From Flammeovirga pectinis (lineage in GTDB: Bacteria; Bacteroidota; Bacteroidia; Cytophagales; Flammeovirgaceae): 64,000 bases of DNA. The position numbers were made by a program, and so were the translations under genes. Below are positions 1,033-28,975 of this stretch, in pieces (within the stretch, counting starts at the first letter, position 1; every line of letters starts with the position of its first letter). Location of the stretch: positions 124,001 to 188,000 of the forward strand of contig NZ_CP034563.1 of assembly GCF_003970675.1 (NCBI RefSeq). Reading direction: 5' to 3'. The notes under the pieces are model-generated. The model did no database searches. It saw only the letters and a list, made by a program, of their open reading frames with translations, and was not told where the DNA came from.

Positions 1033-1213
1033 GTTCTCTGATTTATAGTATTATTAATACACTCCAATTTAAGTGTTTATATTTAGTTTTTTCGTTTAAA
1101 AACTCTAATTTTATTTTCAGCGGATTTTATAAATATGTACAGAACTTTCGGTTAAGCAGAATCGTATTTTTTTTGATAGTAAAACTTGTTACCAAATTCA
1201 GTATAGTTTTTTG

Positions 1214-1560
1214 TCATTTTGGATTTCTATCAATTGCGATTTTGAATGTTTCAACCGCTTTATCATATTTTTGGTCATATCTAAGCGAAAGTCCTTTTTA
1301 TAGATAAATATTGTCATCATCTAAACCTTTGGAAATCGCTTTGTCATAAATTTCAATAGCCTTTTTTATCACTTTCAAGTTTAAAAAAGGTATACCCAAT
1401 ACAATACACTTGCTCTTTAGTTAATTGTTTCGATTTGTCTGTAAACTTTATCAGTTTCTTAAAATCTCTTGTATTGTATAATTCCTCAACAGTTTAAGCA
1501 TTTAACATTCCAAACAGAAATGTTAGGATAATTGTTAATTATATTTTTCTTTTTAATGTG
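1214..1560 (-). pseudogene. Decayed TPR-repeat protein in a cassette
   Basis: Reading the minus strand gives a broken protein. A hydrophobic start (LTIILTFLFGMLNA) is followed by a stop, then TVEELYNTRDFKKLIKFTD, then a frameshift. In another frame come AIEIYDKAISKGLDDDNIYL, a stop, and KGLSLRYDQKYDKAVETFK with AIDRNP, which is a clear tetratricopeptide pattern. At least two stops and one or two frameshifts are present and there is no intact start. The fragment lies between boxes GTTACCAAA (1188-1196) and TGTGGTAAC (1559-1567), which are reverse complements at 8 of 9 positions, so it occupies one cassette. It was probably a secreted TPR protein. Confidence 0.6.
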
Positions 1561-1613
1561 TGGTAACGTTTAGTATAAATGGGCATTTTAATGCCATTTA
1601 TACAGTGTTTTAT
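1561..1613. other. attC-like site, short form
   Basis: The boxes TGGTAAC and GTTTTAT flank a palindrome, GTATAAATGGGCATT...AATGCCATTTATAC, with a small loop. The right box GTTTTATGC (1607-1615) matches as reverse complement, at 8 of 9 positions, the GCATATAAC box at 2410-2418 beyond the next gene. This is the arrangement of an integron cassette. The sequence shows the palindrome and boxes; recombination activity is inferred. Confidence 0.65.
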
Positions 1614-1619
1614 GCTTTT

Positions 1620-2399
1620 TTATCCTGTATAAACATCTGTTCCTATGTATAAGTATTTATTTTCATACTTGATTAAATACTCATTGTAATCCCAATCTTT
1701 AGAGGTTCTGATTATTGATTCTGGTTTCTTATTCTGAAATAGTTCATAATCCTTTCTTTCTAGTCCCTTCCAATAATCCGTAAAATCGCCAACTTCCTTT
1801 TGATATTCATTTACCGTCAAGGGTAAAAACTCTGCTGTCGTCATATCCCATCCGTCATAATCAAGTTTGGAGGAAAATGAATACCACGCATGCTCAATTG
1901 TTATTGGATTTTTGGCAATTAATAAACCTTTAGTCAATTTAATATTACCAATTTCTTTAAAATCAATTTTTATTGGTAATACCTCTATTGAATCTTTTTC
2001 TAGAAATTTACACATTGATTTTCTAGAGATTAACCTTTGATGGAATCGTTCCTCAATTATCTTGAAGTTTCGTTCTTCAAATAATTCAATATCTGAATAA
2101 GAAATATTCCAATTTTGAATTAACATATCCCATATCAATTTAATAAAACCTTGAGAAACTGACTGTGGGTGTGTTTTATAGTCAGTTTGTAATTTAATTG
2201 TATAACTGAAATGTTTGTTTTTGTCTATTGTTAATCTGAAAGAATTCCCCTGATAATTAGTCAGAAAGAACAAATCTATATTTAAATTACCCTGATGCTT
2301 TACGTTTCTATGGAAAAAGTAATTGGAAATGCTTTTTAGCAATTCTAAGGAAGGTATGTTCTCCGATAAGTTGAATGCTATGATGTAACAATATTCCAT
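1620..2399 (-). CDS. Cassette-borne hypothetical protein, 259 aa
   Basis: Not recognised. It is a soluble acidic/aromatic protein without signal peptide or membrane segment, starting MEYCYIIAFNLSENIPSLE and ending YIGTDVYTG. It fills one cassette almost exactly: stop codon 5 bp after the GTTTTATGC box, start codon about 10 bp before the GCATATAAC box. No promoter of its own is evident, as usual for cassette genes. The C-terminal half has WYSFSSKLDYDGWDMTTAEF and EYQKEVGDFTDYWKGLE, which could serve as search seeds. Function unknown. Confidence 0.75.
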   Translation of the reverse strand: MEYCYIIAFNLSENIPSLELLKSISNYFFHRNVKHQGNLNIDLFFLTNYQGNSFRLTIDKNKHFSYTIKLQTDYKTHPQSVSQGFIKLIWDMLIQNWNISYSDIELFEERNFKIIEERFHQRLISRKSMCKFLEKDSIEVLPIKIDFKEIGNIKLTKGLLIAKNPITIEHAWYSFSSKLDYDGWDMTTAEFLPLTVNEYQKEVGDFTDYWKGLERKDYELFQNKKPESIIRTSKDWDYNEYLIKYENKYLYIGTDVYTG

Positions 2400-2453
2400 G
2401 ATTTCTTTTGCATATAACGAAATTGCTAAACTGCGAGCGAGGGTGCGTCACCC

Positions 2454-3832
2454 AATGCTCTAAACTTAAGGATTTAACATTTCATTTTTCAACGATTTCA
2501 ATGTTTCTCCTCTCTTTACAATTATACTAATATAATTTGTAAGACTGAAATGAAAAATAGAACAATATCCCAATTTATAAACTATCTGAACACTTTAATT
2601 AAATCAGATGAAGTACTCAATAATTTTAAAGTAGAAGCAAAAGACTTTACACGGAATAGAGTGATTAGTTTCGTCGATATAATTTTCATTTTAATCGGTA
2701 GAGTTACAAAAACAACTATGGTTGAATTGGTCCAATTTTTCTCGAATAACGGTACCTTAAAAATATGTTCTCCTCAGGCATTTAGTAAGGCTAAACTAAA
2801 AATTAATCCTGCTGTATTTCAATTTCTAAATCAAGAAATTTTAGACTTTTATTATGAAAAAAAAAGAAACACGTTTTATAAAAATAAATACCAATTACTT
2901 GCTGTTGATGGAAGTATGATTCAACTACCAGATAGTAATGAGTTGGGTCAAGTATTTTTGAGAGCAAAAAATAATAATGGGGCTGGAATGCCACTTGCAA
3001 GAGCTTCTGTTTTATATGATTTAAATAATGATTTAGCTTTAGATGCATTAATAACACATAATAAACATAGTGAAGTATCTCTTTTTTATGAACATATTGA
3101 TAATTCATCACATCTTATTGATAATCAAATTATTAATCCTGTAATAATATTAGACAGAGGATACGCAAACATCAATATAATTGAGTCTATTTTAAAAAAT
3201 AAGATGTTGTTTTTAATTCGAATAAAAGCATCCTTAAATAAAGAAGTTATCGAGTTTGTAAATTCAAATGTAATTGAAAATACAATTATTTTTAAGAGGA
3301 AAGACAGAGACAATATTTCATGTAGAATCGTAAAAGTAAAATTGAAAAGTGGAGAAATAGAATATCTATTGACAAACACGGAATTCTCCATAAAAGAACT
3401 CAAAGAACTATATTATAAAAGATGGGGTATTGAAACTTATTATGGATATATCAAATCTAGTTTACAACTCGAAAATTTCTCTTCAAAATCAGCAAATGGT
3501 GTACTATTAGAATTTTATGCAACTATATTTTCAGCCAATTTGAATCAGGTTTTAATTATTGAAACGGCATTGAAAAACGATCCAAAAAACAAGTACGAAT
3601 ACAAGGTAAATAGAAATATTGCAACGGGTATTTTTAAAAGTTTTTACATTAAAATGAGAATGTATAAACGTGTTCCTAAAAAGATAATTGACGATACACT
3701 GACACTTATCAGACGATCAAAAATTCCAATAAAAATGGAGAGGACTTTTGAAAGAATTAAAAATAAAAGAAGTCGAAGAAAGTACCATTTTAATAGGAAA
3801 TTGGCTATTTAACATCTTAAGTTTAGAGCATT
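2454..3832 (+). mobile_element. IS4-family insertion sequence, copy 1 (intact)
   Basis: The element is 1379 bp with perfect 17-bp terminal inverted repeats AATGCTCTAAACTTAAG. It is flanked by 13-bp direct repeats GGGTGCGTCACCC at 2441-2453 and 3833-3845. The repeat itself is a mini-palindrome (GGGTG/CACCC), the tip of an attC hairpin. It contains one transposase gene. Its right flank is also the left flank of copy 2. Confidence 0.92.
2550..3812 (+). CDS. IS4-family DDE transposase, 420 aa
   Basis: This cut-and-paste transposase carries the IS4 signature. The first catalytic Asp is in VDGS (D120), the second in ILDRGYAN (D202), and the YREK motif is exactly spaced: Y288-x2-R291-x3-E295-x6-K302 (YYKRWGIETYYGYIK). 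The N-terminus (residues 1-110) is the DNA-binding region and the basic tail (KNKRSRRKYHFNRKL) is typical. Length is normal for the family. The gene is intact and nearly identical to the copy at 24512-25774 (about five residue differences), which suggests recent transposition. Confidence 0.95.
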   Translation: MKNRTISQFINYLNTLIKSDEVLNNFKVEAKDFTRNRVISFVDIIFILIGRVTKTTMVELVQFFSNNGTLKICSPQAFSKAKLKINPAVFQFLNQEILDFYYEKKRNTFYKNKYQLLAVDGSMIQLPDSNELGQVFLRAKNNNGAGMPLARASVLYDLNNDLALDALITHNKHSEVSLFYEHIDNSSHLIDNQIINPVIILDRGYANINIIESILKNKMLFLIRIKASLNKEVIEFVNSNVIENTIIFKRKDRDNISCRIVKVKLKSGEIEYLLTNTEFSIKELKELYYKRWGIETYYGYIKSSLQLENFSSKSANGVLLEFYATIFSANLNQVLIIETALKNDPKNKYEYKVNRNIATGIFKSFYIKMRMYKRVPKKIIDDTLTLIRRSKIPIKMERTFERIKNKRSRRKYHFNRKLAI

Positions 3833-3845
3833 GGGTGCGTCACCC

Positions 3846-5223
3846 AATGCTCTAAACTTAAGGATTTAACATTTCATTTTTCAACGATTTCAATGTTTCT
3901 CCTCTCTTTACAATTATACTAATATAATTTGTAAGACTGAAATGAAAAATAGAACAATATCCCAATTTATAAACTATCTGAACACTTTAATTAAATCAGA
4001 TGAAGTACTCAATAATTTTAAAATAGAAGCAAAAGACTTTACACGGAATAGAGTGATTAGTTTCGTCGATATAATTTTCATTTTAATCGGTAGAGTTACA
4101 AAAACAACTATGGTTGAATTGGTCCAATTTTTCTCGAATAACGGTACCTTAAAAATATGTTCTCCTCAGGCATTTAGTAAGGCTAAACTAAAAATTAATC
4201 CTGCTGTATTTCAATTTCTAAATCAAGAAATTTTAGACTTTTATTATGAAAAAAAAGAAACACGTTTTATAAAAATAAATACCAATTACTTGCTGTTGAT
4301 GGAAGTATGATTCAACTACCAGATAGTAATGAGTTGGGTCAAGTATTTTTGAGAGCAAAAAATAATAATGGGGCTGGAATGCCACTTGCAAGAGCTTCTG
4401 TTTTATATGATTTAAATAATGATTTAGCTTTAGATGCATTAATAACACATAATAAACATAGTAAAGTATCTCTTTTTTATGAACATATTGATAATTCATT
4501 GCATCTTATTGATAATCAGGTTATTAATCCTGTAATAATATTAGACAGAGGATACGCAAACATCAATATAATTGAGTCTACTTTAAAAAATAAAATGTTG
4601 TTTTTAATTCGAACAAAAGCATCCTTAAATAAAGAAGTTATCGAGTTTGTAAATTCAAATGTAATTGAAAATATAATTATTTTTAAGAGGAAAGACAGAG
4701 ACAATATTTCATGTAGAATCGTAAAAGTAAAATTGAAAAGTGGAGAAATAGAATATCTATTGACAAACACGGAATTCTCCATAAAAGAACTCAAAGAACT
4801 ATATTATAAAAGATGGGGTATTGAAACTTATTATGGATATATCAAATCTAGTTTATAACTCGAAAACTTCTCTTCAAAATCAGCAAATGGTGTACTATTA
4901 GAATTTTATGCAACTATATTTTCAGCCAATTTGAATCAGGTTTTAATTATTGAAACGGCATTGAAAAACGATCCAAAAAACAAGTACGAATACAAGGTAA
5001 ATAGAAATATTGCAACGGGTATTTTTAAAAGTTTTTACATTAAAATGAGAATGTATAAACGTGTTCCTAAAAAGATAATTGACGATACACTGACACTTAT
5101 CAGACGATCAAAAATTCCAATAAAAATGGAGAGGACTTTTGAAAGAATTAAAAATAAAAGAAGTCGAAGAAAGTACCATTTTAATAGGAAATTGGCTATT
5201 TAACATCTTAAGTTTAGAGCATT
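3846..5223 (+). mobile_element. IS4-family insertion sequence, copy 2 (defective)
   Basis: The element is 1378 bp with the same 17-bp inverted repeats as copy 1. It lies in tandem with copy 1, sharing the 13-bp target repeat at 3833-3845, and its right flank repeat is at 5224-5236. So the same attC loop was hit twice, leaving three copies of GGGTGCGTCACCC. Confidence 0.9.
3942..5203 (+). pseudogene. IS4-family transposase, broken
   Basis: This is a near-identical copy of the 420-aa transposase with two lesions. A run of eight A is shortened to seven after codon ~104 (GAAAAAAAAGAAAC in copy 1), shifting the frame so that translation stops after 122 residues. A C-to-T change also turns the CAA codon after KSSL into TAA near 4855. 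Three open pieces remain (3942-4310, 4307-4858, 4931-5203). No active transposase is expected, although the ends could still be mobilised in trans. Confidence 0.92.
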
Positions 5224-5282
5224 GGGTGCGTCACCCGAGACTTGCTGTTTGAGCTGATGTTGGGCAACGTACTTATTTTAAA

Positions 5283-5858
5283 CTAATTTTTTAAAGCCAT
5301 TATATGACTATTTAATAGTTTCGTTTCTTGTGCTACATCGGAAACAAGTCTTTTACAACGATCTGTCCAATATGTATTTTCTTTTTTCATTAACCGTAAT
5401 CGATCTACATAATCCCCGTACATAAAATACATCATGTTACTTTCTTTTGTTGTATAAATAATTGTTTCTTCCCTTTCCCTAAAACGAATACCACATGCAC
5501 TACTAGTTAGGCTTGTATAAATTGTCAATTGTTTACCTAAATATTCACCTTTAAAAATTTTTGAAACTTCTAATGTTACTTTATATAATGAATATCCTTC
5601 TAAATATCTTGATAGCCTTTCATTATCCCCTATTAACGTTTGTAATGATGCAATACTATCTACATTAATTGTTTCTAAAGTGTTTACCATCTCAACTTTC
5701 AGAATCTTTCCTTTAACAATTAAATTTGCTTTCTTATATCCGTTTTCTACTGAAGTTGAGTCACATTTACAACCAAAAGAATTTAAAGGGTTTACTAAGA
5801 TCAATAATATTACAAATAAAAGATGAGTCAGATTTCTATTAGCTAAAATTTTATTCAT
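5283..5858 (-). CDS. Secreted netrin/TIMP-like (NTR fold) protein, 191 aa
   Basis: The N-terminal signal sequence (hydrophobic residues 12-29) runs into the CKC motif (GCKCDSTSVENGYKKANLIVKG), the typical start of TIMP/netrin-like OB-fold domains. Later cysteines in TSSACGIRF and WTDRCKRL fit disulfides of that fold. In bacteria such proteins are exported and have no assigned reaction. The gene fills a cassette bounded by GTTGGGCAAC (5259-5268) and its exact complement at 5886-5895. No terminator or promoter of its own is obvious. Family assignment rests on the CxC start and cysteine spacing. Confidence 0.7.
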   Translation of the reverse strand: MNKILANRNLTHLLFVILLILVNPLNSFGCKCDSTSVENGYKKANLIVKGKILKVEMVNTLETINVDSIASLQTLIGDNERLSRYLEGYSLYKVTLEVSKIFKGEYLGKQLTIYTSLTSSACGIRFREREETIIYTTKESNMMYFMYGDYVDRLRLMKKENTYWTDRCKRLVSDVAQETKLLNSHIMALKN

Positions 5859-5888
5859 TTTATTGAAAGTTTGCTATGACTATATGTT

Positions 5889-5957
5889 GCCCAACGTGAT
5901 GACTAAACTACGTGAGCGGTTGCGTCAACCGCGATTGGAGTTTAGTTACTGTTGGGT
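5889..5957. other. attC site, canonical boxes
   Basis: R'' GCCCAAC and R' GTTGGGT fit the RYYYAAC/GTTRRRY consensus. Between them ACTAAACT pairs with AGTTTAGT and GGTTG with CAACC around a CGT loop; unpaired bases break the stems, as in attC sites. It is the uninterrupted relative of the attC sites struck by the IS4 copies. The right box GTTGGGTAC (5951-5959) recurs as reverse complement at 7071-7079. Confidence 0.8.
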
Positions 5958-5968
5958 ACTGTAAATAT

Positions 5969-7048
5969 TTACTTTAGCTGTAAAGGACAATAACTTTCAG
6001 CTTGTGAGTTAATGATAACAGTTTGATCATTTATCTTTAATATTTCATTATATTTTGATATTGATTCAAATTTTGAAAAAAAATCCACTTTAATAGATTT
6101 CATCTGATTTTTTCTTGTTATCATTGGTCTAAATTTAAATTCCCAGCTACAAAACTCGATTTCATTATAATGAATATTTTTAGGATCACCTTCATTATAA
6201 ATACGTTTTCCGTTATAATATAAATATTCATCAAATTGATATTTTTTTGAACGTGATTCTATCATTTTGGTAAATGGTGTATTTGATAGATGACGAGCCC
6301 CCACTTGACCGTAAAAGTTACTAAAGTCTCTGATATTATAATATTCAATTATTTCATCAAAGTTAGCTACCCATTCTTGATCATTATTTCTATTTGTTAC
6401 ACTTTTGTTTCTTATTGTTTTTAATGATAATAATCTGAGTAAATTAAAATCATTTTCTGAAAGGTTTTCTTTATATAAGGTTTCATATTTAGTGAAGTTC
6501 TCATACATTTCATTATAGTAGTTGTATTCTGAAAGTGGGGGTTTTGTATTTGGTGAACCAAATACCCTATCTGCATTGATAAATTTTTGAGTAATTTCAT
6601 CTAACTCATTTGGTATAATTTCTATGGTTTTAAATATGTCACTAATTACATGTATAAAGGGATATCTGGTTTCATAATCAACACCAATAATTACGAACTT
6701 TTAATTCTCAGGTAAAGAATCATAAAGAACTTTTAATTCTTGTATTAAAGACCTAAAACCTTCAAAAGCATAATATCCATAAATACGTTTTATTGGCTCT
6801 TCATTACCATCAATTAAGTATTTTGTATACAAAAAAGAGTTTGCAAAACCCATTTCAAGAACTAAATTTGTTTTACCATTCTTTTTAATCTGGTTTTTAA
6901 AGTTTTGTAATAATGCTTTTTCTGAACCTTTAGTAAGGTGTACTTCCCCAGATAATTTAAATGAATTAATTGATTTTTCTTGACCATACGAAAAATGAAC
7001 AATCAACCAGAAAAAAATAATTGATAGTAGCTTTATTGAAGATTTCAT
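5969..7048 (-). pseudogene. ChaN/erythromycin-esterase-like secreted protein, one in-frame stop
   Basis: A single 359-residue reading frame starts at 7048 (signal peptide MKSSIKLLSIIFFWLIVHFSYGQ) and ends at 5969. It is interrupted only by one TAA near 6701, after LYDSLPEN; downstream KFVIIGVDYETRYPF continues in the same frame. The N-terminal part (LSGEVHLTKGSEKALLQNF, NLVLEMGFANSFLYTKYL) matches the style of the ChaN/TraB/erythromycin-esterase-like fold and resembles the N-terminus of the protein at 42642-44927. The stop could be a real inactivating mutation or a sequencing error. It fills a cassette bounded by the 9-bp boxes GTTGGGTAC and GTACCCAAC. Confidence 0.75.
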
Positions 7049-7072
7049 TTTTTGTTCTTAAATGTCTATAGT

Positions 7073-7203
7073 ACCCAACGGTTGGTGTAAGTTTATTAGC
7101 GGATTTACGTGCGGTTATCCGTCCGATAGGAACGGATAATTGGGCGTGAATCCAACGTTGGAACACCCACCGAACCCGCTGTTAAATTTACACTTTGTTA
7201 CCA
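7073..7203. other. attC-like site, long form
   Basis: R'' ACCCAAC (extended GTACCCAAC 7071-7079) and R' GTTACCA (extended GTTACCACC 7197-7205) bound 131 bp with nested complementarity. GTGTAA...TTTACAC is the outer stem, AGCGG/CCGAACCCGCT lies further in, and GGTTATCCGT/ACGGATAATTGGG is the inner stem. The size is that of long Vibrio-type attC sites. The right box is the exact reverse complement of GGTGGTAAC at 7944-7952. Confidence 0.7.
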
Positions 7204-7211
7204 CCTTTTTT

Positions 7212-7925
7212 TTATTCACAATTAATATTTATCTCCTTGCAGTCAGATAACTTTCTCAATTCTTTTCCTTTCACATCGTCCGTTCTTAAATCAAGTTGCA
7301 TAATCCTATCCATTTCAAATTCGATTTCCCATATTGACTCATTATCTGTTTCATCATTACTTGCTTTATACAGAAAACGGTTATTTGAATATTTATAAAA
7401 TTCTTGTGGTCTGTCTTCTATATCAGTCATTTTAAAAATTTCTTTGTCTTTATTTAGGTCAAATATGCTAAATCCAGCTAAGTCGGAATTGTAGATAGAG
7501 AATAGAAGTCCATTATCATTATCAACTGAAACACAACCTCCAATTGTCAGGAATTTTTCTCCTTTGCCATTTATAATGATTGTTTGTCCATCATAGTCCC
7601 CAAACTTTGAAATGACAATATGGTCTTTTATAATTTCATTGTAAACCAATAATCCATAATGTCCTCCAACTGGTTCTATCTCCGAAAATTCAATAGAATC
7701 AATTTTTTTTCCACTTTCTAATATTTCAATTCTCGCTCTACAGTATGGAATATTAGGCGACTCAATTAATGATTTGTATTGTGTGATTATTACATCAATA
7801 TTTTCAATTGACTTTTTAATTTGAGTTTCCTTTGTCTCGGAGTTTTTTTGTTGACCAAATGAATAGAAAACTACTAACAAAAGCAGATAGATAGTTAATG
7901 ATATTTTTGGGTTTATATGTCTCAT
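7212..7925 (-). CDS. Cassette-borne secreted hypothetical protein, 237 aa
   Basis: The signal peptide (MRHINPKISLTIYLLLLVVFYSFGQQ) is followed by a short charged linker and a mixed beta-rich domain: PVGGHYGLLVYNEIIKDHIVISKFGDYDGQTIIINGKGEKFLTIGG and later ESIWEIEFEMDRIMQLDLRTDD. No family recognised. The repeated GG/NGKG turns and alternating hydrophobics suggest a propeller or sandwich fold, which is only a guess. Its cassette is bounded by GTTACCACC (7197-7205) and GGTGGTAAC (7944-7952), a 9/9 match. Confidence 0.75.
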   Translation of the reverse strand: MRHINPKISLTIYLLLLVVFYSFGQQKNSETKETQIKKSIENIDVIITQYKSLIESPNIPYCRARIEILESGKKIDSIEFSEIEPVGGHYGLLVYNEIIKDHIVISKFGDYDGQTIIINGKGEKFLTIGGCVSVDNDNGLLFSIYNSDLAGFSIFDLNKDKEIFKMTDIEDRPQEFYKYSNNRFLYKASNDETDNESIWEIEFEMDRIMQLDLRTDDVKGKELRKLSDCKEININCE

Positions 7926-7945
7926 TTTCGGTCTTTTAAAATTGG

Positions 7946-8138
7946 TGGTAACGTTCTTAATAAGTGGCGTGGGCTATTTGAAAAATAAAACTCCCAAGAC
8001 CCCACAAAGCCAAAGCTTTTGTTTTGGTTATAAATTTATTCCTTTTCCTAGCCAAAACAAAAGCTTTGGCGACCTAATTTAATGAGCAAAACTGCCTAAT
8101 TTATGCTGACAGCCCATGCCATTTATTTATTGTTGCCA
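7946..8138. other. attC-like site, very long with nested perfect palindrome
   Basis: Boxes TGGTAAC and GTTGCCA enclose 193 bp. The outer stem pairs AATAAGTGGCGTGGGCT with AGCCCATGCCATTTATT. Inside is a perfect 19-bp inverted repeat, GCCAAAGCTTTTGTTTTGG (8010-8028) and its complement at 8052-8070. The right box GTTGCCAGC (8132-8140) is the exact reverse complement of GCTGGCAAC at 8906-8914. Confidence 0.7.
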
Positions 8139-8145
8139 GCTGGTT

Positions 8146-8871
8146 TTATTTCCCAAAGAGCCTTCCGAAAAATCCTCTTTTCTTTTTCTTAATCACCCAT
8201 ATCAAATCTTTCGAATGTCTTTTAGTCAGATTATTTGGTCCAAATTTACCCCAAGCAAATCCATCTTTATCTTTAGGATTTCTTAAATCAGCAATAACCC
8301 AATCTTCGCCGTCAAATTCATTAAGAAAATCTACATATTCTTTATTATTCAATGAGAAATCGGCTTTATCAGTCAGTTTACCACCGTTTTCCCATACCTC
8401 AAAAACAACGTTATCGTGAATCTCGTTTAGATAGTTTTCCGAAGGTGATTCATAAAACTCAAACAATCTCATTAAGAAACCATTCAAATTATCAGAGTAT
8501 TTTACAAATACTGCAGGGTCATGGCACACATAATAGACGTGCCCTAGTGAACCGTTTTTTAAAATGTCAAGAATCCAAACGTTTCCTAATCCGTCATGCC
8601 CAAGAGTTATTGAATTGGGAGACAACTCAAGAAAACCAAATTCTTCAATTGAAGAAAAATCAACCTGTTCCACTCCGTAACCTTCCCAACCAATAGTCTC
8701 TTGAAGAATTTCTTTAATCTCAGAATCTATTGTATTATTAGGGAATGATTTTGAAAGTTCCGCAATCTCAGAATTCGTTAATCCTTCTTGAAAATTAAGA
8801 GTGTAAGCTTCTCCATCTTCATTAGTAAATGTCGATTCCTTTAGTTTATTAATAATCTCAGTATTTTTCAT
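8146..8871 (-). CDS. SMI1/KNR4 (SUKH) family protein, probable immunity protein
   Basis: Residues of the SUKH fold are visible: FPNNTIDSEIKEILQETIGWEGYGVEQVDFSSIEEFGF, then ITLGHDGLGNVWILDI, then GHVYYVCHDPAVFVKYSDNLNGFL. SUKH proteins are known as immunity partners of contact-dependent and polymorphic toxins, and are common cargo of integron cassettes. I chose the ATG at 8871 (MKNTEIINKLKE, about 241 aa). The upstream TTG extension to 8913 runs into the recombination box GCTGGCAAC and is unlikely. The C-terminus is basic (KKKKRGFFGRLFGK). No toxin gene is adjacent, so the target is unknown. Confidence 0.8.
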   Translation of the reverse strand: MKNTEIINKLKESTFTNEDGEAYTLNFQEGLTNSEIAELSKSFPNNTIDSEIKEILQETIGWEGYGVEQVDFSSIEEFGFLELSPNSITLGHDGLGNVWILDILKNGSLGHVYYVCHDPAVFVKYSDNLNGFLMRLFEFYESPSENYLNEIHDNVVFEVWENGGKLTDKADFSLNNKEYVDFLNEFDGEDWVIADLRNPKDKDGFAWGKFGPNNLTKRHSKDLIWVIKKKKRGFFGRLFGK

Positions 8872-8907
8872 GTCGGTTTTTTTCTGCGGGTCTGTTCTTT
8901 GACTTGC

Positions 8908-9038
8908 TGGCAACGTTTTGAATATGGTGCGTTTGGCATTTCAACGCTCAAAATTTTCAAATTGCTACTATGTTTATCAACTGCTATCACTTTCAATATT
9001 AGCACTATCTGCCAAATGCACTATATTTTTTGTTGGCT
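8908..9038. other. attC-like site, long form
   Basis: Boxes TGGCAAC and GTTGGCT bound 131 bp. AATATGGTGCGTTTGGCA at the left pairs imperfectly with TGCCAAATGCACTATATT at the right. The right box GTTGGCTGC (9032-9040) is the exact reverse complement of GCAGCCAAC at 12377-12385, on the far side of the IS21-interrupted cassette. Confidence 0.75.
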
Positions 9039-9045
9039 GCTGGTT

Positions 9046-9432
9046 TTATTCCCACCATTTCTCATTTTCAGCTTTTTGTGCCTCTTCAATATTCATATGT
9101 TCTGGACTGGCTCCATTTGCAATTTTAAGTCCAATCCAGCCATTTGATACATATTTGTCACAAGGACTAAATCTTGCTGCTCCACAATCAAATCCTGTTA
9201 CATTTGGAACTCTATAGTCTCCCCAATTACAGTTTTTGGAAGTCCCTGTGGAATAACTAGTCCAAGTACCAACAAATTGATTATTGGTCATATCATCCGC
9301 GCTACTTCTCAAATCATTGTATGTTAATGTATCATTGTTTATATAGAAATCAGTCGCTGAAATTCCTTGAAAAATACCAGTATGTTTCTCATTTGAATTT
9401 TCGGTCAATATGTAATCACTGTATATATTAAT
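9046..9432 (-). pseudogene. 3' part of a cassette gene cut by an IS21 element
   Basis: The open frame runs from inside the IS21 end (TAG) through NIYSDYILTENSNEKHTGIF to the C-terminus EEAQKAENEKWWE at 9046. It has no credible start codon. A cysteine-bearing segment (NCNWGDYRVPN, FDCGAARFSPCDKYVSNGW) is distinctive, but I cannot name the family. Together with 11899-12336 it lies in one cassette. Joining the two flanks across one TTAAT repeat leaves a one-base frame offset, so the original was either one gene already frameshifted or two overlapping genes. Confidence 0.6.
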
Positions 9433-9493
9433 CGAAAACTACACCACTTATTACTTCAAAAGTGCAGCACTTTCAAACCAAAAATAATGGCTT

Positions 9494-10261
9494 TTATTCA
9501 GTATTTGCAAGTAAATTTTCTTTTGTTTTTTTCATTCTGTAGGATTCTCCATTCATGTTGATATAAATTGATTGGTGATTTAACCTGTCTACCATTGCAG
9601 CCGTTAATACTTTATCATGAAAAATTTCAGTCCATCTATCGAAGCCTAAATTTGTAGTAATGATGGTTGATTTATTATCTGTTCTGATAGAAAGTAATGA
9701 AAATAACATTTCTGCCGAAGCCTTATCGAAGGAGATATATCCAAATTCATCACAGATGACAAGGTCATATTTTTCGAATCTATTTTCAAAAACTGTTTGA
9801 CTTCTACTTTCTTTAGCTTCTCTGAGCTGAGTGACTAATCTTGGCACAGAAGTGAAAAGAACAGAGTAGCCTTCCATGCATGCTTTTACGCCTAACCCTA
9901 TTGCCATATGCGTCTTTCCAGTACCAGGATTACCCGCTAAAATTACATTCTGCTTTTCTTCTAAAAAAGAAAGTTCATTTAACAAGGGTAATTTGGCTTG
10001 AGCATCTTGGGGTAAGTCATTTAGCACAAGATCATGGAGGTATTTCATGGAAGGAAAATGAGCTCTTTTGAGTCGTTCCTTATGTCTTCTTTCAATTCGA
10101 TGATGATACTCTAACTCTAACAGCTCTAATAAAAAATCTTCGTATGTTTTATTTTCAATAATAGCTTGCTTCGCTATTTTCGAAAACTCTTTATTGATAA
10201 TAGACAACCGTAAATCTTTAGTCAGTAATGCGATACGGTCTTTGTGATGTATTGATTTCAT
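9494..10261 (-). CDS. istB: IS21 transposition helper ATPase IstB, 255 aa
   Basis: This AAA+ ATPase assists IstA in target capture. The Walker A motif GNPGTGKTHMA is near residues 110-120, Walker B is in YDLVICDEFGYI near 170, and a sensor-type segment STIITTNLGFDRW follows. Length (255 aa) is standard for IstB. It lies 9 bp downstream of istA, so the two are co-transcribed on the minus strand. Confidence 0.95.
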   Translation of the reverse strand: MKSIHHKDRIALLTKDLRLSIINKEFSKIAKQAIIENKTYEDFLLELLELEYHHRIERRHKERLKRAHFPSMKYLHDLVLNDLPQDAQAKLPLLNELSFLEEKQNVILAGNPGTGKTHMAIGLGVKACMEGYSVLFTSVPRLVTQLREAKESRSQTVFENRFEKYDLVICDEFGYISFDKASAEMLFSLLSIRTDNKSTIITTNLGFDRWTEIFHDKVLTAAMVDRLNHQSIYINMNGESYRMKKTKENLLANTE

Positions 10262-10270
10262 CTTTTTATT

Positions 10271-11809
10271 TTAGTTTTGTAATGAAGAAGTATTCATTTG
10301 AGAATGTGCTAATAATAGCCGTTCACTATACTGTTCTATTTCATCCTCTTTAGAAGTGACAGCAGATGGGGTTTCTGCACTATAAAGCATTTGTAAAAGA
10401 GCATAATCGATTTTACTTTGAGGTGCTTTCTGCTGGTAAAACTCTATTTTCTCTTCCAACTCTTTAATGCTAATCTTCTCTGTACGCATCCATTGGAGTA
10501 CTTGTATGTATTCCTTTTCATTTCCTTTAAAAAACTGATGATAAAGTGTTTTAAAACCTGTTTGTACTTGTTGTAATGCACTTGAGTGAGCCAAAGCCCC
10601 TGGTTTTTTAGAGAAGGTATTCAAGTAGTCATAAATATCAATATACCATTGATTTTTAGTGTGATGCCTCATTTTAGTGACAATGATTTGCTCTTTGTCA
10701 TCTAAAACATGAAATCTTGACGTTTCTATTTTTAAAGTGACGTACTTTCTTTTTAGCTTTTCGGGAATGGAATAATGATTACTATCCAAATAAACACAAT
10801 GGTATTTATTGATCGCTAACTTCTTTAAAATAGCAGTTTGGTAAGCTGTTACAGGAACTGATCGCATATAGTTTAGTTCTTCTTTTAAGAGAACTTCTGC
10901 TACTTCTTTTTGTGCTTTAGGGGGCTTATTATTAAGTAGAATAAGTTGTTGTTCTAAATGGAGATTCGCCTTCTCTAAATCATCAAATTTTGTTGACAGA
11001 CTAAACGATTTTCTACGGATATACTCAACACTACGTTCTACATTTCCTTTTTCATTACCACTATAAGCATTACAAAAGCGATATTGAAACTGATAATAAG
11101 CAGATAGTTTCAAGAGCTCATCTGTGGCAATTTTCTCTTTAGGATTATAGGAATATTTCTTAACAGCAACTCTCATATTATCGTAAACAATTTCTTTCGG
11201 AACACCTCCAATATGATAAAGAAACAGATTATGACTTTCTAGAAAGCTCTGCATATCCTGACGGTAGAATAAGTAAGCCCAACGGTAATTGCTATACTTA
11301 TTCGTAAATACAGCCATCTGTAGCCTTCTTTCCTGCCCACCTAGTTCAAGACGAACTTCACCCCAATCAAACTCAATATTTTCTCCTGCCTGATAAGACT
11401 GTTTAAGGTAGATTTTCTGGTGGTTGGATTGCTCTTGTTTACGAACATAATTACAAACAGTAGTATACCCAATGAGGTGCCCTTTTTGCTGTAAATACTC
11501 ATAAATGTCATGCTTATTCATGAGTTGTTTAGAACGCCCTTTCTGTCTATTCTCTTTGTTTCTATTCAAACAATCTGCAATATCTTCAACTACTTCTACT
11601 GTTAATCTTTTCTTGGGACGAGAGGTGATTTCCCGATATTGAGGAGCACTTAATATATTGGTTCCTGATTGTTGAAGAACTTCATGTTCATCAATATATT
11701 TTTTGACTGTTCTAAAGTTAAGACCCAGCTCACGAGCTAAGCTTCTTTTTGATTTTCCATTGGTGTAGTAACCTACGATTACTGCAGCTTTTTTATTCAT
11801 ACTAATCAC
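10271..11809 (-). CDS. istA: IS21 transposase IstA, 512 aa
   Basis: The N-terminal helix-turn-helix (KAAVIVGYYTNGKSKRSLARELGLNFRTVKKYI) is followed by a retroviral-type integrase core. The DDE residues are visible in EFDWGEVRLEL, KEIVYDNMRVAV and NEKGNVERSVEYIRRK. A C-terminal Mu-type beta-barrel region (YHCVYLDSNHYSIPEKLKRKYVTL) follows. Intact and of normal length. The start MNKKAA (codon 4) is an equally possible initiator. Confidence 0.95.
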   Translation of the reverse strand: MISMNKKAAVIVGYYTNGKSKRSLARELGLNFRTVKKYIDEHEVLQQSGTNILSAPQYREITSRPKKRLTVEVVEDIADCLNRNKENRQKGRSKQLMNKHDIYEYLQQKGHLIGYTTVCNYVRKQEQSNHQKIYLKQSYQAGENIEFDWGEVRLELGGQERRLQMAVFTNKYSNYRWAYLFYRQDMQSFLESHNLFLYHIGGVPKEIVYDNMRVAVKKYSYNPKEKIATDELLKLSAYYQFQYRFCNAYSGNEKGNVERSVEYIRRKSFSLSTKFDDLEKANLHLEQQLILLNNKPPKAQKEVAEVLLKEELNYMRSVPVTAYQTAILKKLAINKYHCVYLDSNHYSIPEKLKRKYVTLKIETSRFHVLDDKEQIIVTKMRHHTKNQWYIDIYDYLNTFSKKPGALAHSSALQQVQTGFKTLYHQFFKGNEKEYIQVLQWMRTEKISIKELEEKIEFYQQKAPQSKIDYALLQMLYSAETPSAVTSKEDEIEQYSERLLLAHSQMNTSSLQN

Positions 11810-11898
11810 ATTTAAGTATCTACAAAAAGTAAATACTATTCAAATTTAATTTCGATTAGTGCTGCACTTTTTAAGTAATAGGGTGTTGCAGTTTTGGG

Positions 11899-12336
11899 TT
11901 AATACTTACAATCACAAAACAATACACCAATCTTTTCTGGTTTTACTTTGCTACGATACGGCATATCATAAATTCCATCAGGATAAAGTCTAATCGTTTT
12001 GATTTCGATTACTCCCGTAAATCCGCACACATTAGATTTAACTCTCGTTTTTCCGTATACGTAATACTTTTCAGGATTATTGATGTCCTTATTTATTGAA
12101 ATCCATTTAATTTGAATTCTTTGCATTTTGTCTCCTATTATCCCAAAAATTTCAGTTGAAGAAGTTTTTAAAAACAGTTCTGAAAAATCATATCCAATCA
12201 ATTCCGATTTTGATTCTTTACTATCCAATCCATAATTTGAAATAAAGTCATTGTACCATTGATTTGGACTTCTATTTTCTTGTCCGATTACTTGGCCACA
12301 AAAAACTGTTAATGCTATTATAAATATTTTTCTCAT
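11899..12336 (-). CDS. Secreted hypothetical protein, first gene of array A (5' piece of IS21-split cassette)
   Basis: I start it at the ATG of MRKIFIIALTVFCGQVIGQENR (12336), a clean signal peptide. The longer TTG-initiated frame to 12387 runs through the GCAGCCAAC box at the attI junction and is unlikely. The mature part (NQWYNDFISNYGLDSKESK...IGVLFCDCKY) is about 127 aa and unknown. Its TAA stop falls within the TTAAT target duplication of the IS21. It is the attI-proximal cassette gene of array A, the best-expressed position in an integron. It may be the N-terminal piece of a longer protein continued at 9432-9046. Confidence 0.6.
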   Translation of the reverse strand: MRKIFIIALTVFCGQVIGQENRSPNQWYNDFISNYGLDSKESKSELIGYDFSELFLKTSSTEIFGIIGDKMQRIQIKWISINKDINNPEKYYVYGKTRVKSNVCGFTGVIEIKTIRLYPDGIYDMPYRSKVKPEKIGVLFCDCKY

Positions 12337-12382
12337 AATCAAATGCTTATTTTTTGCAATACGGTTCTTTAAACTTGCAGCC

Positions 12383-12613
12383 AACAATATACAAACATAT
12401 TACCGTTTATATTTTTTGCGTTTATTTTTATTTTATTTCTTTGAATAAGGCGATAAATCCAAGTTTGCATTGATACCTTACAATAAAAGTTGTAGGATAT
12501 TTTTTTTGCACATTATATTTTTTGCGTTTATCCAATTGTTAACACACTACTATTAATGGAGATATAAGTTTGCTTTGTTTTAGTTTTAGTCGCCAGAAAG
12601 AAGAAGTTCATTA
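12383..12613. other. attI-like site A (end of cassette array)
   Basis: About 230 bp here and at 28976-29205 are nearly identical, and the match begins exactly at the AAC (complement of GTT) of the cassette box and stops being shared to its left. It contains two 18-bp direct repeats TATATTTTTTGCGTTTAT (12408-12425, 12514-12531) rather than a hairpin. This fits an integron attI with integrase-binding direct repeats. On the minus strand TATGTTTG, a TAnnTTTG-type Bacteroidota -7 box, sits about 10 bp before the GTT and could be the cassette promoter. Function is inferred; the shared boundary is seen. Confidence 0.65.
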
Positions 12614-14349: not shown

Positions 14350-14569
14350 TATTTTGATTTCTTAAGTCAATTTGAGTTTACTAGTTTAAGACATTTAATA
14401 AACTACATTGTCATAGTTTTGGAATAGAGTGGTATTGTCATATATAAATTTTCAAAAAAATCTTCTTTTTCCCTCCCCAAAAAATAGTTTGCTGTCAGAT
14501 AGTTGAATTGTTCTTACAATTTAATTTTAAAATCATCACTAAACAATCAAAAAATTACATAAGGTATTT

Positions 14570-14848: not shown

Positions 14849-15421
14849 TTAAACGCACTTCTTCTGTTCCATTGCTGTTGATGGATTCTTCCAGAGTGTA
14901 AATGTTGTTTGGTTTTTGATTAAGGCACGCATCCAATAATATTTTGGGATGGATGCTGATCTTTGTTCTTTTTGGAATTTTATATGTTCCAGCCATAGGT
15001 CGAAAAGTTCCCAATCATCATGAAACGTTACATCCTTTATTCCTAGACGAAAAGCATACATTTTTGGGAATGGGGTAAACTTAAATCTGCTAGAATTAAA
15101 TTTCACTTTATAATGTCTGTCAGAATACCACAGTAAAAACCTTCTTTCTGTGTGTAACTCGTAATCATTTTTTCTTATTGGGTTTGGGTAAAGAGGTCTT
15201 GTTTTTATACTTCCACCTGATAACTTCTTACGGGCTAAGTATAATTTATGGGCATAGTCTGCATTGTATTTTTTAGTTAGTGGGTGGGTATTACGTTTTA
15301 GTTCACGATAAATAGTTGAAGGAGATACTTCTAGTCCTTCTGCTATTTCGGGAACACTAAATATTTTTTCTTTTATCAGTCGTTGGATGACTTTTCTATG
15401 GTAGAGTTGAAGGTTTTTCAT
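14849..15421 (-). CDS. IS30-type helix-turn-helix protein, 190 aa
   Basis: Residues 1-45 (LYHRKVIQRLIKEKIFSVPEIAEGLEVSPSTIYRELKRN) are an HTH_38-type domain, and KKYNADYAHKLYLARKK resembles the segment after the HTH in IS30 transposases. The catalytic DDE core of IS30 is absent. Instead there is an aromatic C-terminal domain (ELHTERRFLLWYSDRHYKV, DDWELFDLWLEHIKFQKEQRSASIPKYYWMRALIKNQTTFTLWKNPSTAMEQKKCV) conserved in all three copies in this window. It is probably a DNA-binding regulator derived from a transposase. It lies downstream of, and possibly co-transcribed with, the 15587-16078 gene, next to an attI-like site. Confidence 0.75.
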   Translation of the reverse strand: MKNLQLYHRKVIQRLIKEKIFSVPEIAEGLEVSPSTIYRELKRNTHPLTKKYNADYAHKLYLARKKLSGGSIKTRPLYPNPIRKNDYELHTERRFLLWYSDRHYKVKFNSSRFKFTPFPKMYAFRLGIKDVTFHDDWELFDLWLEHIKFQKEQRSASIPKYYWMRALIKNQTTFTLWKNPSTAMEQKKCV

Positions 15422-15586: not shown

Positions 15587-16078
15587 TTATACTGTTACAG
15601 TTGCTGTAAATAATTCATAATCATTGACTGTCCAACCTTGTAGGTTAGCGTAATCAACCACTACTTTAATACTTTCAATTAGTTCATGCTTAAAAGCGAT
15701 TTCAATTGCAGTTTCAAAGCTATTTTCAATATAGCCATAACCACATTTAGCTTCGTATCTAATAAGTAATTCTCTTACTTTTACAAAGGCTTTGTCTCTT
15801 TCCAGTTGTGTTTTATCTTTCAGCGGTCCATTAGATTGAGTTGCTAACACTTCATCAAGATTAGAGATGTTATTTTGCAATAAAGTTATCTGACTTGACA
15901 ATAATTGACGTGTTGTTTCCCCTTTATCCGCAGCATATTCTCCTTTACTAGCTTCCATGCTATATTTCTTATGCTTCGCGTACATTTGATCTATAAAGTT
16001 CTGAGCTTCTTCTTGAGAGCTGACATAAATTGATACGTTTTGATCGTTAAGCGTATCGTTGAAATTAATCGTTTGCAT
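15587..16078 (-). CDS. Unknown 163-aa protein of the HTH module
   Basis: No family recognised. It begins MQTINFNDTLNDQNVSIYVSSQEEAQ, has a helical middle (residues 60-115, TTRQLLSSQITLLQNNISNLDEVL) that may form a coiled coil, and ends KVVVDYANLQGWTVNDYELFTATVTV. No signal peptide or membrane segment. A 56-aa version with the middle deleted sits at the same place in the second module (30109-30279). The two share the upstream sequence (TAAATACTTTTTATT and flanks) and a structured element further upstream. Always paired with the HTH gene, so a functional partner is likely. Confidence 0.65.
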   Translation of the reverse strand: MQTINFNDTLNDQNVSIYVSSQEEAQNFIDQMYAKHKKYSMEASKGEYAADKGETTRQLLSSQITLLQNNISNLDEVLATQSNGPLKDKTQLERDKAFVKVRELLIRYEAKCGYGYIENSFETAIEIAFKHELIESIKVVVDYANLQGWTVNDYELFTATVTV

Positions 16079-16461: not shown

Positions 16462-16544
16462 CAGTATAGGCTAATTGTTCTCTTTAAAAATTACAACTCT
16501 ACAACTATTAGCGCTAATGATTCTTTTCCGAAAATAAGGCTAGA

Positions 16545-20331: not shown

Positions 20332-20402
20332 TTCAAATGTATCTAAGTAGAACGTTTAAAATAATAGATTTGTTTGGTTATAAGTTGATCATAGTAAAGG
20401 TT
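20326..20402 (-). repeat. Duplicated 5' region, copy b
   Basis: Partner of 19062-19139 with only a few substitutions. It ends where a partial attC-like palindrome begins. Confidence 0.7.
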
Positions 20403-20411
20403 TATGTTTTG

Positions 20412-20467
20412 GCTAAATTCTTGAAGGGTTGCGTCAACCGTGATTGGAGTTTCAGCGATTGTTGAAC
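20412..20467. other. Partial attC-like site
   Basis: GGTTGCGTCAACC with flanks TGATTGGAGTTTCAGCGATT and box GTTGAAC (20461-20467) closely match the right part of the attC at 5889-5957. The left box is not recognisable; the left half seems replaced by the duplicated leader. It marks the left edge of array B. Confidence 0.55.
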
Positions 20468-20613
20468 AAAAGCTTCGCTAGCTAAAGCCCACAATCTCTT
20501 ACCTTTATAACTTAATTGAGTTTGTTTTATTATAGTTTTAGACGCCAGAAAGAAGAAGTTCATTAACCATTCTAAGGTGTTGATACCCTTTGAGTTCTAT
20601 TCGTTTTTAAATT
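20461..20613. repeat. Mosaic of IS91-cassette left end and post-attI sequence
   Basis: 20461-20522 (GTTGAACAAAAGCTTCGC...) is the same as 25830-25892, the left end of the IS91-like unit. It switches at about 20523 to TAGTTTTAGACGCCAGAAAG, the sequence found right of both attI-like sites (12580-12613, 29172-29205). The junction is a rearrangement scar. 20614-20715 shows nothing else. Confidence 0.6.
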
Positions 20614-24367: not shown

Positions 24368-24415
24368 TATTAATACTAACGATTTTGCTAAACTGCGAGC
24401 GAGGGTGTATCACCC

Positions 24416-25794
24416 AATGCTCTAAACTTAAGGATTTAACATTTCATTTTTCAACGATTTCAATGTTTCTCCTCTCTTTACAATTATACTAATATAATTT
24501 GTAAGACTGAAATGAAAAATAGAACAATATCCCAATTTATAAACTATCTGAACACTTTAATTAAATCAGATGAAGTACTCAATAATTTTAAAGTAGAAGC
24601 AAAAGACTTTACACGGAATAGAGTGATTAGTTTCGTCGATATAATTTTCATTTTAATCGGTAGAGTTACAAAAACAACTATGGTTGAATTGGTCCAATTT
24701 TTCTCGAATAACGGTACCTTAAAAATATGTTCTCCTCAGGCATTTAGTAAGGCTAGACTAAAAATTAATCCTGCTGCATTTCAATTTCTAAATCAAGAAA
24801 TTTTAGACTTTTATTATGAAAAAAAAAGAAACACATTTTATAAAAATAAATACCAATTACTTGCTGTTGATGGAAGTATGATTCAACTACCAGATAGTAA
24901 TGAATTAGGTCAAGTATTTTTGAGAGCAAAAAATAATAATGGGGCTGGAATGCCACTTGCAAGAGCTTCTGTTTTATATGATTTAAATAATGATTTAGCT
25001 TTAGATGCATTAATAACACATAATAAACATAGTGAAGTATCTCTTTTTTATGAACATATTGATAATTCATCACATCTTATTGATAATCATATTATTAATC
25101 CTATAATAATATTAGACAGAGGATATGCAAACATCAATATAATTGAGTCTATTTTAAAAAATAAAATGTTGTTTTTAATTCGAACAAAAGCATCCTTAAA
25201 TAAAGAAGTTATCGAGTTTGTAAATTCAAATGTAATTGAAAATACAATTATTTTTAAGAGGAAAGACAGAGACAATATTTCATGTAGAATCGTAAAAGTA
25301 AAATTGAAAAGTGGAGAAATAGAATATCTATTGACAAACACGGAATTCTCCATAAAAGAACTCAAAGAACTATATTATAAAAGATGGGGTATTGAAACTT
25401 ATTATGGATATATCAAATCTAGTTTACAACTCGAAAACTTCTCTTCAAAATCAGCAAATGGTGTACTATTAGAATTTTATGCAACTATATTTTCAGCCAA
25501 TTTGAATCAGGTTTTAATTATTGAAACGGCATTGAAAAACGATCCAAAAAACAAGTACGAATACAAGGTAAATAGAAATATTGCAACGGGTATTTTTAAA
25601 AGTTTTTACATTAAAATGAGAATGTATAAACGTGTTCCTAAAAAGATAATTGACGATACACTGACACTTATCAGACGATCAAAAATTCCAATAAAAATGG
25701 AGAGGACTTTTGAAAGAATTAAAAATAAAAGAAGTCGAAGAAAGTACCATTTTAATAGGAAATTGGCTATTTAACATCTTAAGTTTAGAGCATT
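24416..25794 (+). mobile_element. IS4-family insertion sequence, copy 3 (intact)
   Basis: 1379 bp, same 17-bp inverted repeats as copy 1. Target duplication GGGTGTATCACCC at 24403-24415 and 25795-25807. The TAT loop differs from the CGT loop at the other site, so this is an independent insertion into a homologous attC at the same position. Confidence 0.92.
24512..25774 (+). CDS. IS4-family DDE transposase, 420 aa (copy 3)
   Basis: Differs from the 2550-3812 protein at a few residues (for example R for K in FSKARLKINPAAF, H for Q in DNHIINPI, T for I in LIRTKAS). D120, D202 and the Y288/R291/E295/K302 motif are intact, so it is probably functional. Confidence 0.95.
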   Translation: MKNRTISQFINYLNTLIKSDEVLNNFKVEAKDFTRNRVISFVDIIFILIGRVTKTTMVELVQFFSNNGTLKICSPQAFSKARLKINPAAFQFLNQEILDFYYEKKRNTFYKNKYQLLAVDGSMIQLPDSNELGQVFLRAKNNNGAGMPLARASVLYDLNNDLALDALITHNKHSEVSLFYEHIDNSSHLIDNHIINPIIILDRGYANINIIESILKNKMLFLIRTKASLNKEVIEFVNSNVIENTIIFKRKDRDNISCRIVKVKLKSGEIEYLLTNTEFSIKELKELYYKRWGIETYYGYIKSSLQLENFSSKSANGVLLEFYATIFSANLNQVLIIETALKNDPKNKYEYKVNRNIATGIFKSFYIKMRMYKRVPKKIIDDTLTLIRRSKIPIKMERTFERIKNKRSRRKYHFNRKLAI

Positions 25795-25912
25795 GGGTGT
25801 ATCACCCGAGACTTGCTGTTTAAGCTGATGTTGAACAAAAGCTTCGCTAGCTAAAGCCCACAATCTCTTACCTTTAGAACTTAATTGAGTTTTTAAATTA
25901 TAGTTTACTAAG

Positions 25913-28309: not shown

Positions 28310-28362
28310 AGCTAACGTTTAGTGTAAAATGCGTTTTAATGCATTTTTACATAGTGTTGTGG
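28310..28362. other. attC-like site, short form
   Basis: Boxes AGCTAAC and GTTGTGG flank GTGTAAAATGCGTTTTAATGCATTTTTACAT, a simple hairpin resembling the site at 1561-1613 (both start AACGTTTAGT). The right box GTTGTGGTG (28356-28364) is the exact complement of CACCACAAC at 28970-28978. Confidence 0.7.
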
Positions 28363-28380
28363 TGTCGTTTTTCTTCTTAT

Positions 28381-28677
28381 TCATAATAATTTTCCAGCAT
28401 ACAGCAGTAAAGCAAAATTTTTCCAATTCGGTTCCTCTTTTATAAGGTCACTGTCTTCTCCATATGCTTCAACAGATTCTAAAAAAGTCGAGATTGTTCC
28501 ATTTTCTCATCCATTTGTTCCAGAACAATATGGGGATGAAGGATCAATTTTTTCTTTTTCATCTTCATCTATTTTATCCTCTTTAAGTGCCTTCAAGAAC
28601 TTTAAAAAAGTTTTCTTAGAATTTACCTGATTTAACAGTTTATCTAGGTCCATATTGTCATTTATTAAATCATCCAT
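28381..28677 (-). pseudogene. Small immunity-like protein with one in-frame TGA
   Basis: 99 codons from ATG (MDDLINDNMDLDKLLNQVN) to TGA at 28381 with a single internal TGA after SPYCSGTNG. Restoring TGG there would give NGWENGTISTFLESVEAYGED, a DUF7660-type pattern found in small proteins near toxin-immunity loci. The ATG overlaps the stop of the upstream gene (ATGATTTAA), implying translational coupling. One point mutation separates it from a whole gene. Confidence 0.65.
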
Positions 28678-28958: not shown

Positions 28959-28975
28959 TCTTTATTATGCACCAC

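Follow-up and report, generated by a model that had tools for sequence, protein, structure and literature searches.

A stretch of 64,000 nucleotides from Flammeovirga pectinis, a member of the Bacteroidota (contig NZ_CP034563.1, positions 124,001 to 188,000; this whole stretch is hereafter called the window), carries one large array of gene cassettes at 1188-12385 and a smaller one extending to 28978. Both are very probably integron-type mobile cassette arrays, moved by a tyrosine recombinase other than the integron integrase IntI. Each cassette would consist of a gene and a hairpin-forming attC site, the units entering and leaving at the G/TT of matched boxes, and the recombinase would most likely belong to a family of tyrosine recombinases that is widespread among Bacteroidota, represented in the genome of the window by a protein of 390 residues. 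Judging from the available parts of the literature, few integrons have been reported in Bacteroidetes (PMC9024848), and surveys select integron integrases by their additional domain (PMC2426708, PMC9668308).

Throughout the window array (1188-12385), blocks lying on the minus strand are bounded by complementary GTT and AAC boxes that are paired within each block, as in canonical integrons; all positions are window coordinates, and the second number of each box pair is the last base of AAC. Five successive blocks carry exact pairs of 9-10 nt (Table 1), and two further pairs, 1188/1567 and 1607/2418, have one mismatch within their first 9 nt. Chains were scored with a program in which every block must have a GTT box at one end and the reverse complement of that box at the opposite end, with adjoining blocks separated by a hairpin. 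The best score for window 1-16000 was 93.9, against a mean of 23.8 (standard deviation 8.9, maximum 47.6) in 200 dinucleotide shuffles; window 1-34000 in reversed form scored no more than 38.3. Five exact 9-mer boxes in an ordered chain arose in none of 500 shuffles, the longest there being four, in 4/500. Taken alone, the second array (28316-28978; cassette 28356-28978) scores 31.7, no higher than the reversed control, and it is accepted because of its 9-nt box, GTTGTGGTG, and the adjoining attI-like site.

Four of the inter-block sites fold in single-stranded form, again as canonical attC sites do, with z from -0.7 to -5.8 over both strands and one strand of one site non-significant (plus/minus strand: 5886-5960, -5.8/-4.4; 7071-7205, -3.3/-4.0; 8906-9040, -2.1/-0.7; 1557-1615, -3.5/-3.9). 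The attC consensus has nine base pairs, two of them with compensatory change. With a covariance model built from 29 short sites, at least 19 positions were marked in the genome (6.68 Mb), a lower bound obtained by scoring the best 150 of 2925 candidates and short sites only; these fall into four regions, namely the main array of the genome, two satellites on contig C1, and C2:122743-148444, which comprises the window array and its neighbourhood (C2 is the contig of the window). An Rfam scan gave no match inside the window array, and a scan for attC sites by hairpins alone was dropped as too noisy.

The cassette ends share an anatomy of their own. They were compared in gene orientation for 101 cassettes from 25 loci (unique end pairs, box score of at least 5.5, chains of at least 40), a set which includes related cassettes and those of the window, so that its members are non-independent, and whose selection favours matches near the core but not the mismatch at position 10. 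Within a cassette, start and end agree in at least 97% of cases at positions 0-8, in 66% at position 9, in 2/101 at position 10, in 80% at positions 11-12 and in 55% at position 13, and are near background beyond. At position 10 the start base is A in 99 of the 101 cassettes, including all five exact ones of the window; the opposing base is C in 71 cassettes, G in 15 and A in 12, where C corresponds to a G-T wobble pair on the opposite strand. In the canonical control, position 10 is paired in 27 of 36 cassettes (10 loci).

Exchange of cassettes was followed by searching window 5260-9032 in 18 genomes of the same family (labelled G003, G005 and so on). Window block 5260-5951, with the gene of cassette 5, is found at 89% in G003:C26:2402-3104, where the attC site is free of insertion sequences (IS), and cassette 4 (5895-7078) is found at 94% in G005:C2:193035-194227, in a large array and among different neighbours; the latter match spans the interval from an AAC to slightly past the following one, and both flanks differ from those in the window. 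A G005 cassette (L088 18632-19475) is likewise present at 93% in L036, a satellite array of the window's genome, the shared part having its left edge at G/TT and its gene part reaching the AAC box while the middle of attC differs, and a 460-bp cassette has five copies in the main array of the window's genome and also occurs in G005, at about 79-84%. The ortholog of the window locus lies in G005:C2:803001-818000, where window 12383-13349 is matched at 84% and 14559-19315 at 92.5%. Similarity stops at the junction AAC, at the attI-like site, beyond which G005 has a nine-site chain (score 171; eight attC sites and the attI-like site) whose cassettes have no match in the window except for one attC.

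By this comparison of genomes, cassettes are gained, lost or exchanged at G/TT as in canonical integrons, and the array and its mobility are firmly supported. A previous sequence-only reading of the window had pointed to the matched boxes and to palindromes between cassettes, had interpreted them as integron cassettes, and had named as tests an enrichment of boxes over shuffled sequence, differences in cassette content at the box junctions of related genomes and a covariance-model search for attC sites. Its boxes and palindromes were borne out by the pairs and folds described above, its interpretation gained support from the shuffles and from the differences seen at AAC junctions, and the covariance search recovered the region of the window array.

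The sequence to the right of the last box recurs, within three mismatches, in six copies in the genome (0 for a reversed control pattern), two of them inside the window, and each copy is bordered on one side by a variable sequence whose last bases are AAC. No integrase match lies beside any of these six attI-like copies in a genome search with the TIGR02249 model of the canonical integron integrase, and no TIGR02249 match at E 0.001 lies within the window stretch C2:124001-188000. Neither array of the window has an integrase next to it; both are satellites located at attI-like sites.

In none of the 18 family genomes does a protein exceed the TIGR02249 cut-off. The best match in the window's genome is the 390-residue recombinase (C2:1162839-1164011; 218 bits for the protein against a cut-off of 265), which heads the main array of that genome (about C2:1153432-1162778) on the same contig as the window; its relatives head arrays in other genomes. 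The array-linked tyrosine recombinases, here called non-canonical integrases, measure 345-683 residues, have no counterpart of the roughly 42-residue insertion of IntI, and possess an extra N-terminal region. Aligned with the Vibrio integrase structure 2a3v, the 390-residue protein matches in two pieces and leaves chain residues 197-237 unmatched. The stretch that bears the insertion, up to the His of HxLRH, spans 89-90 residues in 20 canonical IntI, whereas the 39 non-canonical rows have 47-52 there and the other short recombinases 47-55; the additional domain specific to IntI is thus not present in the non-canonical integrase. Residues R247, K272, H336, R339, H362 and Y371 are invariant across 28 relatives and are taken as the presumed catalytic set. 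Past the integrase stop, a box of score at least 6 that would begin the first cassette lies at 57-141 bp in 8 of 18 loci (boxes were counted within 150 bp, and three of the 18 loci have less than 300 bp downstream) and marks a putative attI. As a separate observation, locus L104 (G011:C28, about 4607-14280) contains, in a row within 10 kb, four fragments of the C-terminal part of the integrase, each in a frame of 62-78 residues.

Linkage between recombinases and arrays was tested on flanks of at least 2 kb, with an array defined as a chain score of at least 40. Non-canonical integrases have arrays downstream in 17/23 flanks and upstream in 0/45 (reversed sequence 0/23 and 0/45), canonical IntI have them upstream in 10/20 and downstream in 2/21 (reversed 0/20 and 0/21), and other short tyrosine recombinases have none, either downstream (0/15) or upstream (0/19). 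Orientation follows the same division: at the 19 non-canonical loci with arrays, the longest open reading frame (ORF) of the cassette is co-oriented with the integrase in 70 cassettes and opposite in 1, with no ORF of at least 60 residues in 13, while the 10 canonical loci with arrays give 7 co-oriented, 31 opposite and 1 without an ORF. The divergence of intI from its array that characterizes canonical integrons is not seen at the non-canonical loci. One 80-locus set was sorted for this test into 30 non-canonical, 7 canonical and 20 other loci and 23 that were broken, cut, partial or unclear and stayed ungrouped (L117, L121, L127, L129, L132, L133, L135, L143, L148, L153, L154, L155, L158, L164, L165, L166, L170, L173, L176, L177, L182, L183 and L185); loci L095, L096 and L100-L107, from an earlier set, were left out, and integrase ends are approximate for L216-L219 and for the other recombinases. 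From its position, orientation and conservation, the non-canonical recombinase is very likely the integrase of these arrays.

The N-terminal region gave no standout Pfam match in six whole integrases. A profile of 32 N-termini has as its best PDB match the HARP domain of SMARCAL1 (4o66, E 0.013; next match E 0.53), and the Pfam HARP model (PF07443) matches 3/32 N-termini, with a best E of 0.0011. Across 291 genomes of the class, that model exceeds its cut-off in one genome, at the N-terminus of such an integrase, and five of its seven best matches are N-termini of relatives of the 390-residue protein; matches near E 0.1-1 occur in most of the 291 genomes and look like noise. The HARP domain of SMARCAL1 binds structured DNA in a structure-specific manner. 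The N-terminal region is likely HARP-like, and it is our hypothesis that it has a role in reading folded DNA.

In a tree of 73 recombinases (OTH_L129, REF_L185 and CAN_L209 left out), canonical IntI form one clade, supported at 99 by the SH-like approximate likelihood-ratio test (100/99 in a further tree), and the non-canonical integrases fall outside it, not nested within the IntI sampled; a gain of the insertion by IntI and its loss in the non-canonical integrases would both fit the tree. Of 295 genomes sampled in the class of the window, presumably Bacteroidia, at least 152 contain a relative at E <=1e-60, not all of them necessarily integrons. This class is suggested by the best named matches, which are mostly from Bacteroidota, the exceptions among the best 31 being metagenome-assembled genomes filed under Deltaproteobacteria, Undinarchaeales, Firmicutes and an unnamed bacterium. 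On a plasmid of Pontibacter kalidii (NZ_CP111080.1), the integrase is followed by a five-site chain (83.1, control 22.6), and on a plasmid of Persicobacter sp. JZB09, which has a 52% relative, the chain search found none. Among the plasmid records with a match, 50/67 are from Acinetobacter.

In the mechanism that these data suggest, the integrase gene would lie upstream of attI and be transcribed in the same direction as the cassettes, and the 390-residue integrase would serve the satellite arrays of the window in trans. The enzyme would itself perform the recombination, presumably on one folded strand, and its N-terminal region may replace the insertion in its role.

Alternatively, the arrays could be ordinary clusters of attC sites lacking a nearby integrase (CALINs), moved in trans by a canonical IntI encoded on plasmids or in other strains, the neighbouring recombinase being an unrelated Xer-like gene. 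CALINs are described as common in the available parts of two studies (PMC9024848, PMC9668308), the boxes and hairpins do resemble canonical attC sites, and canonical IntI exceeds the cut-off in 84/296 genomes of a wider phylum sample. However, the absence of any such IntI from the family genomes, the location of arrays downstream and never upstream of the non-canonical recombinase, and the pairing at position 10 in 2/101 cassettes against 27/36 in canonical arrays all make this explanation unlikely.

Less probable still, with only a slim chance of being right, is that another enzyme moves the cassettes, with the recombinase as a passenger or as one among several genes associated with arrays. 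Such a view could draw on the satellite arrays at the six attI-like copies, which have no recombinase, on the IS91-type elements that encode a short tyrosine recombinase of their own and sit at attC sites inside arrays, on the short recombinase of L143 with its array upstream, and on ORF-B, which adjoins 5/6 attI-like copies. Against it stand the absence of arrays from the flanks of the other short recombinases (0/15 and 0/19) and the 20 further ORF-B loci, of which only three have chains above 40 (L232 54.3, L233 171, L234 44.9); the eight loci of G004 and G008 have no such chain. ORF-A and ORF-B were considered as a candidate new recombinase and rejected because ORF-B is free of arrays in those eight loci and in 4/5 further loci of the window's own genome; this rejection has to be set against one G008 locus (L090) with ORF-B 0.8 kb upstream of the integrase and three G005 ORF-B loci with attI-like sites. 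As for chance matches among intergenic repeats or terminators, the genome does have other palindromic repeats and the hairpin-only scan was noisy, but the shuffle tests and the exchange of units at boxes between genomes refute this explanation, whose probability is negligible.

Several observations weigh against the assignment of the arrays to a non-IntI integrase. The insertion has been called essential for integron function in the available part of one study (PMC8138268). Six of the 23 downstream flanks fall below the array threshold (L090 35.5, L118 27.7, L125 0, L140 18.8, L144 0, L219 0), and the linkage test excludes two unfavourable loci: L143, on a contig of Ichthyenterobacterium magnum, where a 277-residue recombinase without the N-terminal extension has a five-site chain upstream (95.0), and L106 (G015), where another short recombinase without the extension has a chain of 54.1 ending at the recombinase start. 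Two favourable loci were left out as well, L100 (broken integrase, 106.1) and L095 (53.3), both with the chain downstream. The array of L143 lies upstream of position 3143 and could represent the same system arranged in another way. For two of the eight putative attI sites, those of the window's own genome and of G005, a box farther downstream scores equally well or better. The similarity to HARP is weak in single sequences, with no match for the integrase of the window's own genome. Lastly, the non-canonical group forms no clean clade, short IS91-type and other recombinases being mixed in, and the grouping of all 39 non-canonical integrases is borderline (p-AU 0.0499).

A broader proposal, that these enzymes define a second integron lineage, separate from IntI and spread across much of the Bacteroidota, whose HARP-like N-terminus reads folded attC sites and which surveys requiring the insertion have missed, appears to us evenly balanced between true and false. 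A literature search that covered neither preprints nor most subscription papers found no report of integrons with insertion-less integrases, and prior work may exist. Should the family be an integron integrase, a large store of mobile cassettes would have been overlooked, a domain held to be essential for integron recombination would be dispensable, and a natural comparison would be at hand for how integrases recognize folded single-stranded sites. The family may also bear on how some genes left the Bacteroidota, as an integrase-relative fragment lies upstream of tet(X3). This fragment, on an Acinetobacter plasmid (NZ_CP041297.1; L252 3043-5064), shows 57.7% identity over integrase residues 157-390 and lies some 190 bp ahead of tet(X3), with which it shares its direction, the gap containing a box that fits the first-cassette pattern GTT-N7-ATT. 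A search for the corresponding 3' box, allowing up to 2 mismatches, gave nothing, so that a complete tet(X3) cassette is not claimed.

Table 1. Features of the two arrays and their surroundings in the window.
Feature	Position	Strand	Details
attI-like site, array head	12386..12424	-	Fixed sequence, 6 genome copies; cassettes on low-coordinate side
Cassette 1	8914..12384	-	Box GTTGGCTGC (exact pair 9032/12385); ORF 11899-12387 as listed, likely with an internal ATG start; attC 8914-9032
IS21-type istA/istB inside cassette 1	~9449-11880		Proteins by NCBIfam, ends by inverted repeat
Cassette 2	7952..8913	-	Box GTTGCCAGC (exact pair 8132/8914); ORF 8146-8913 with SMI1/KNR4 SUKH-1 domain (Pfam PF09346, E 3.5e-7); attC 7952-8132
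Cassette 3	7079..7951	-	Box GTTACCACC (exact pair 7197/7952); ORF 7212-7925, no match at E 0.1 in Pfam search; attC 7079-7197
Cassette 4	5895..7078	-	Box GTTGGGTACT (exact pair 5951/7079); ORFs 6701-7048 and 5969-6508, possibly a single broken gene; attC 5895-5951
Cassette 5	2418..5894	-	Box GTTGGGCAAC (exact pair 5259/5895); ORF 5283-5858, weak TIMP match under Pfam cut-off; attC 2418-5259, interrupted by two tandem IS4-type copies
Cassette 6	1567..2417	-	Box GTTATATGC vs GTTTTATGC, one mismatch; ORF 1620-2399; attC 1567-1607
Cassette 7, degenerate	1188..1566	-	One-mismatch box; no listed minus-strand ORF of at least 60 residues; array left edge placed here (1188), unsure
Second attI-like site	28979..29017	-	Genome-copy search
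Second-array cassette	28316..28977	-	Box GTTGTGGTG; attC 28316-28356
Further attC-type site	20394..20472	+	Covariance model R1, E 0.0033
attC-type site, split by third IS4-type copy	24369..25836	+	Covariance model and IS comparison
ORF-B, HTH_38 protein	14849..15421	-	Conserved flank of attI-like site, non-core
ORF-A	15587..16078	-	Conserved flank upstream of ORF-B

Two kinds of insertion sequence are associated with the attC sites. IS4-type copies occupy window 2441-5236 (two, in tandem) and about 24404-25809; all three full copies found in the genome interrupt attC sites at the top of the hairpin, where each copy is flanked on either side by the stem sequence GGGTGCGTCACCC or GGGTGTATCACCC, and the element appears to target attC. 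An IS91-type element encoding a short tyrosine recombinase of its own starts with GTTGAACAAAAGC directly at the G/TT of attC (L021 16138-18244; window 25830-27313; L037 from 7524; and, as a candidate, window 20461-23825), and attC-like matches occur near IS91-type recombinases in other genomes too. At window 12643-16078, ORF-B is found in tandem as a full and a partial copy with an unrelated 332-residue gene between them. An Rfam match to the DUF805b RNA motif (41.8 bits) lies at window 58082-58116 on the minus strand.

Set beside known systems, the arrays are like canonical chromosomal integrons in their paired GTT/AAC boxes, hairpin attC sites, genes running in one direction, exchange at G/TT and putative attI-like site beside the integrase, and unlike them in having an integrase that is devoid of the IntI insertion, is extended at its N-terminus and falls outside the canonical clade (100/99), in the near-invariant unpaired A at box position 10, and in an integrase gene that runs with the cassettes rather than away from them. 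An inverted integron is known from Treponema denticola. On the one hand, the window arrays resemble CALINs in being clusters of attC sites with no integrase nearby; on the other hand, they differ from these in lying at repeated attI-like sites, with a non-canonical integrase and its own array elsewhere on the same contig. An "Integron-like" subgroup of tyrosine recombinases has been described (Smyshlyaev 2021, PMC8138268), whose insertion-less members are, in the available part of that study, not connected with cassette arrays, with attI, with gene orientation or with a region at the N-terminus. IS91-type and XerA/XerC-like recombinases are near in sequence to the non-canonical integrases, have no insertion and in many cases share an SPLD-like C-terminus; they differ in having no N-terminal extension and, in the set tested, no adjoining arrays, although the IS91-type elements of the window's genome do sit inside arrays. 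Finally, the HARP domain, known from SMARCAL1 (PF07443), here appears to be carried, in a likely related form, by a recombinase.

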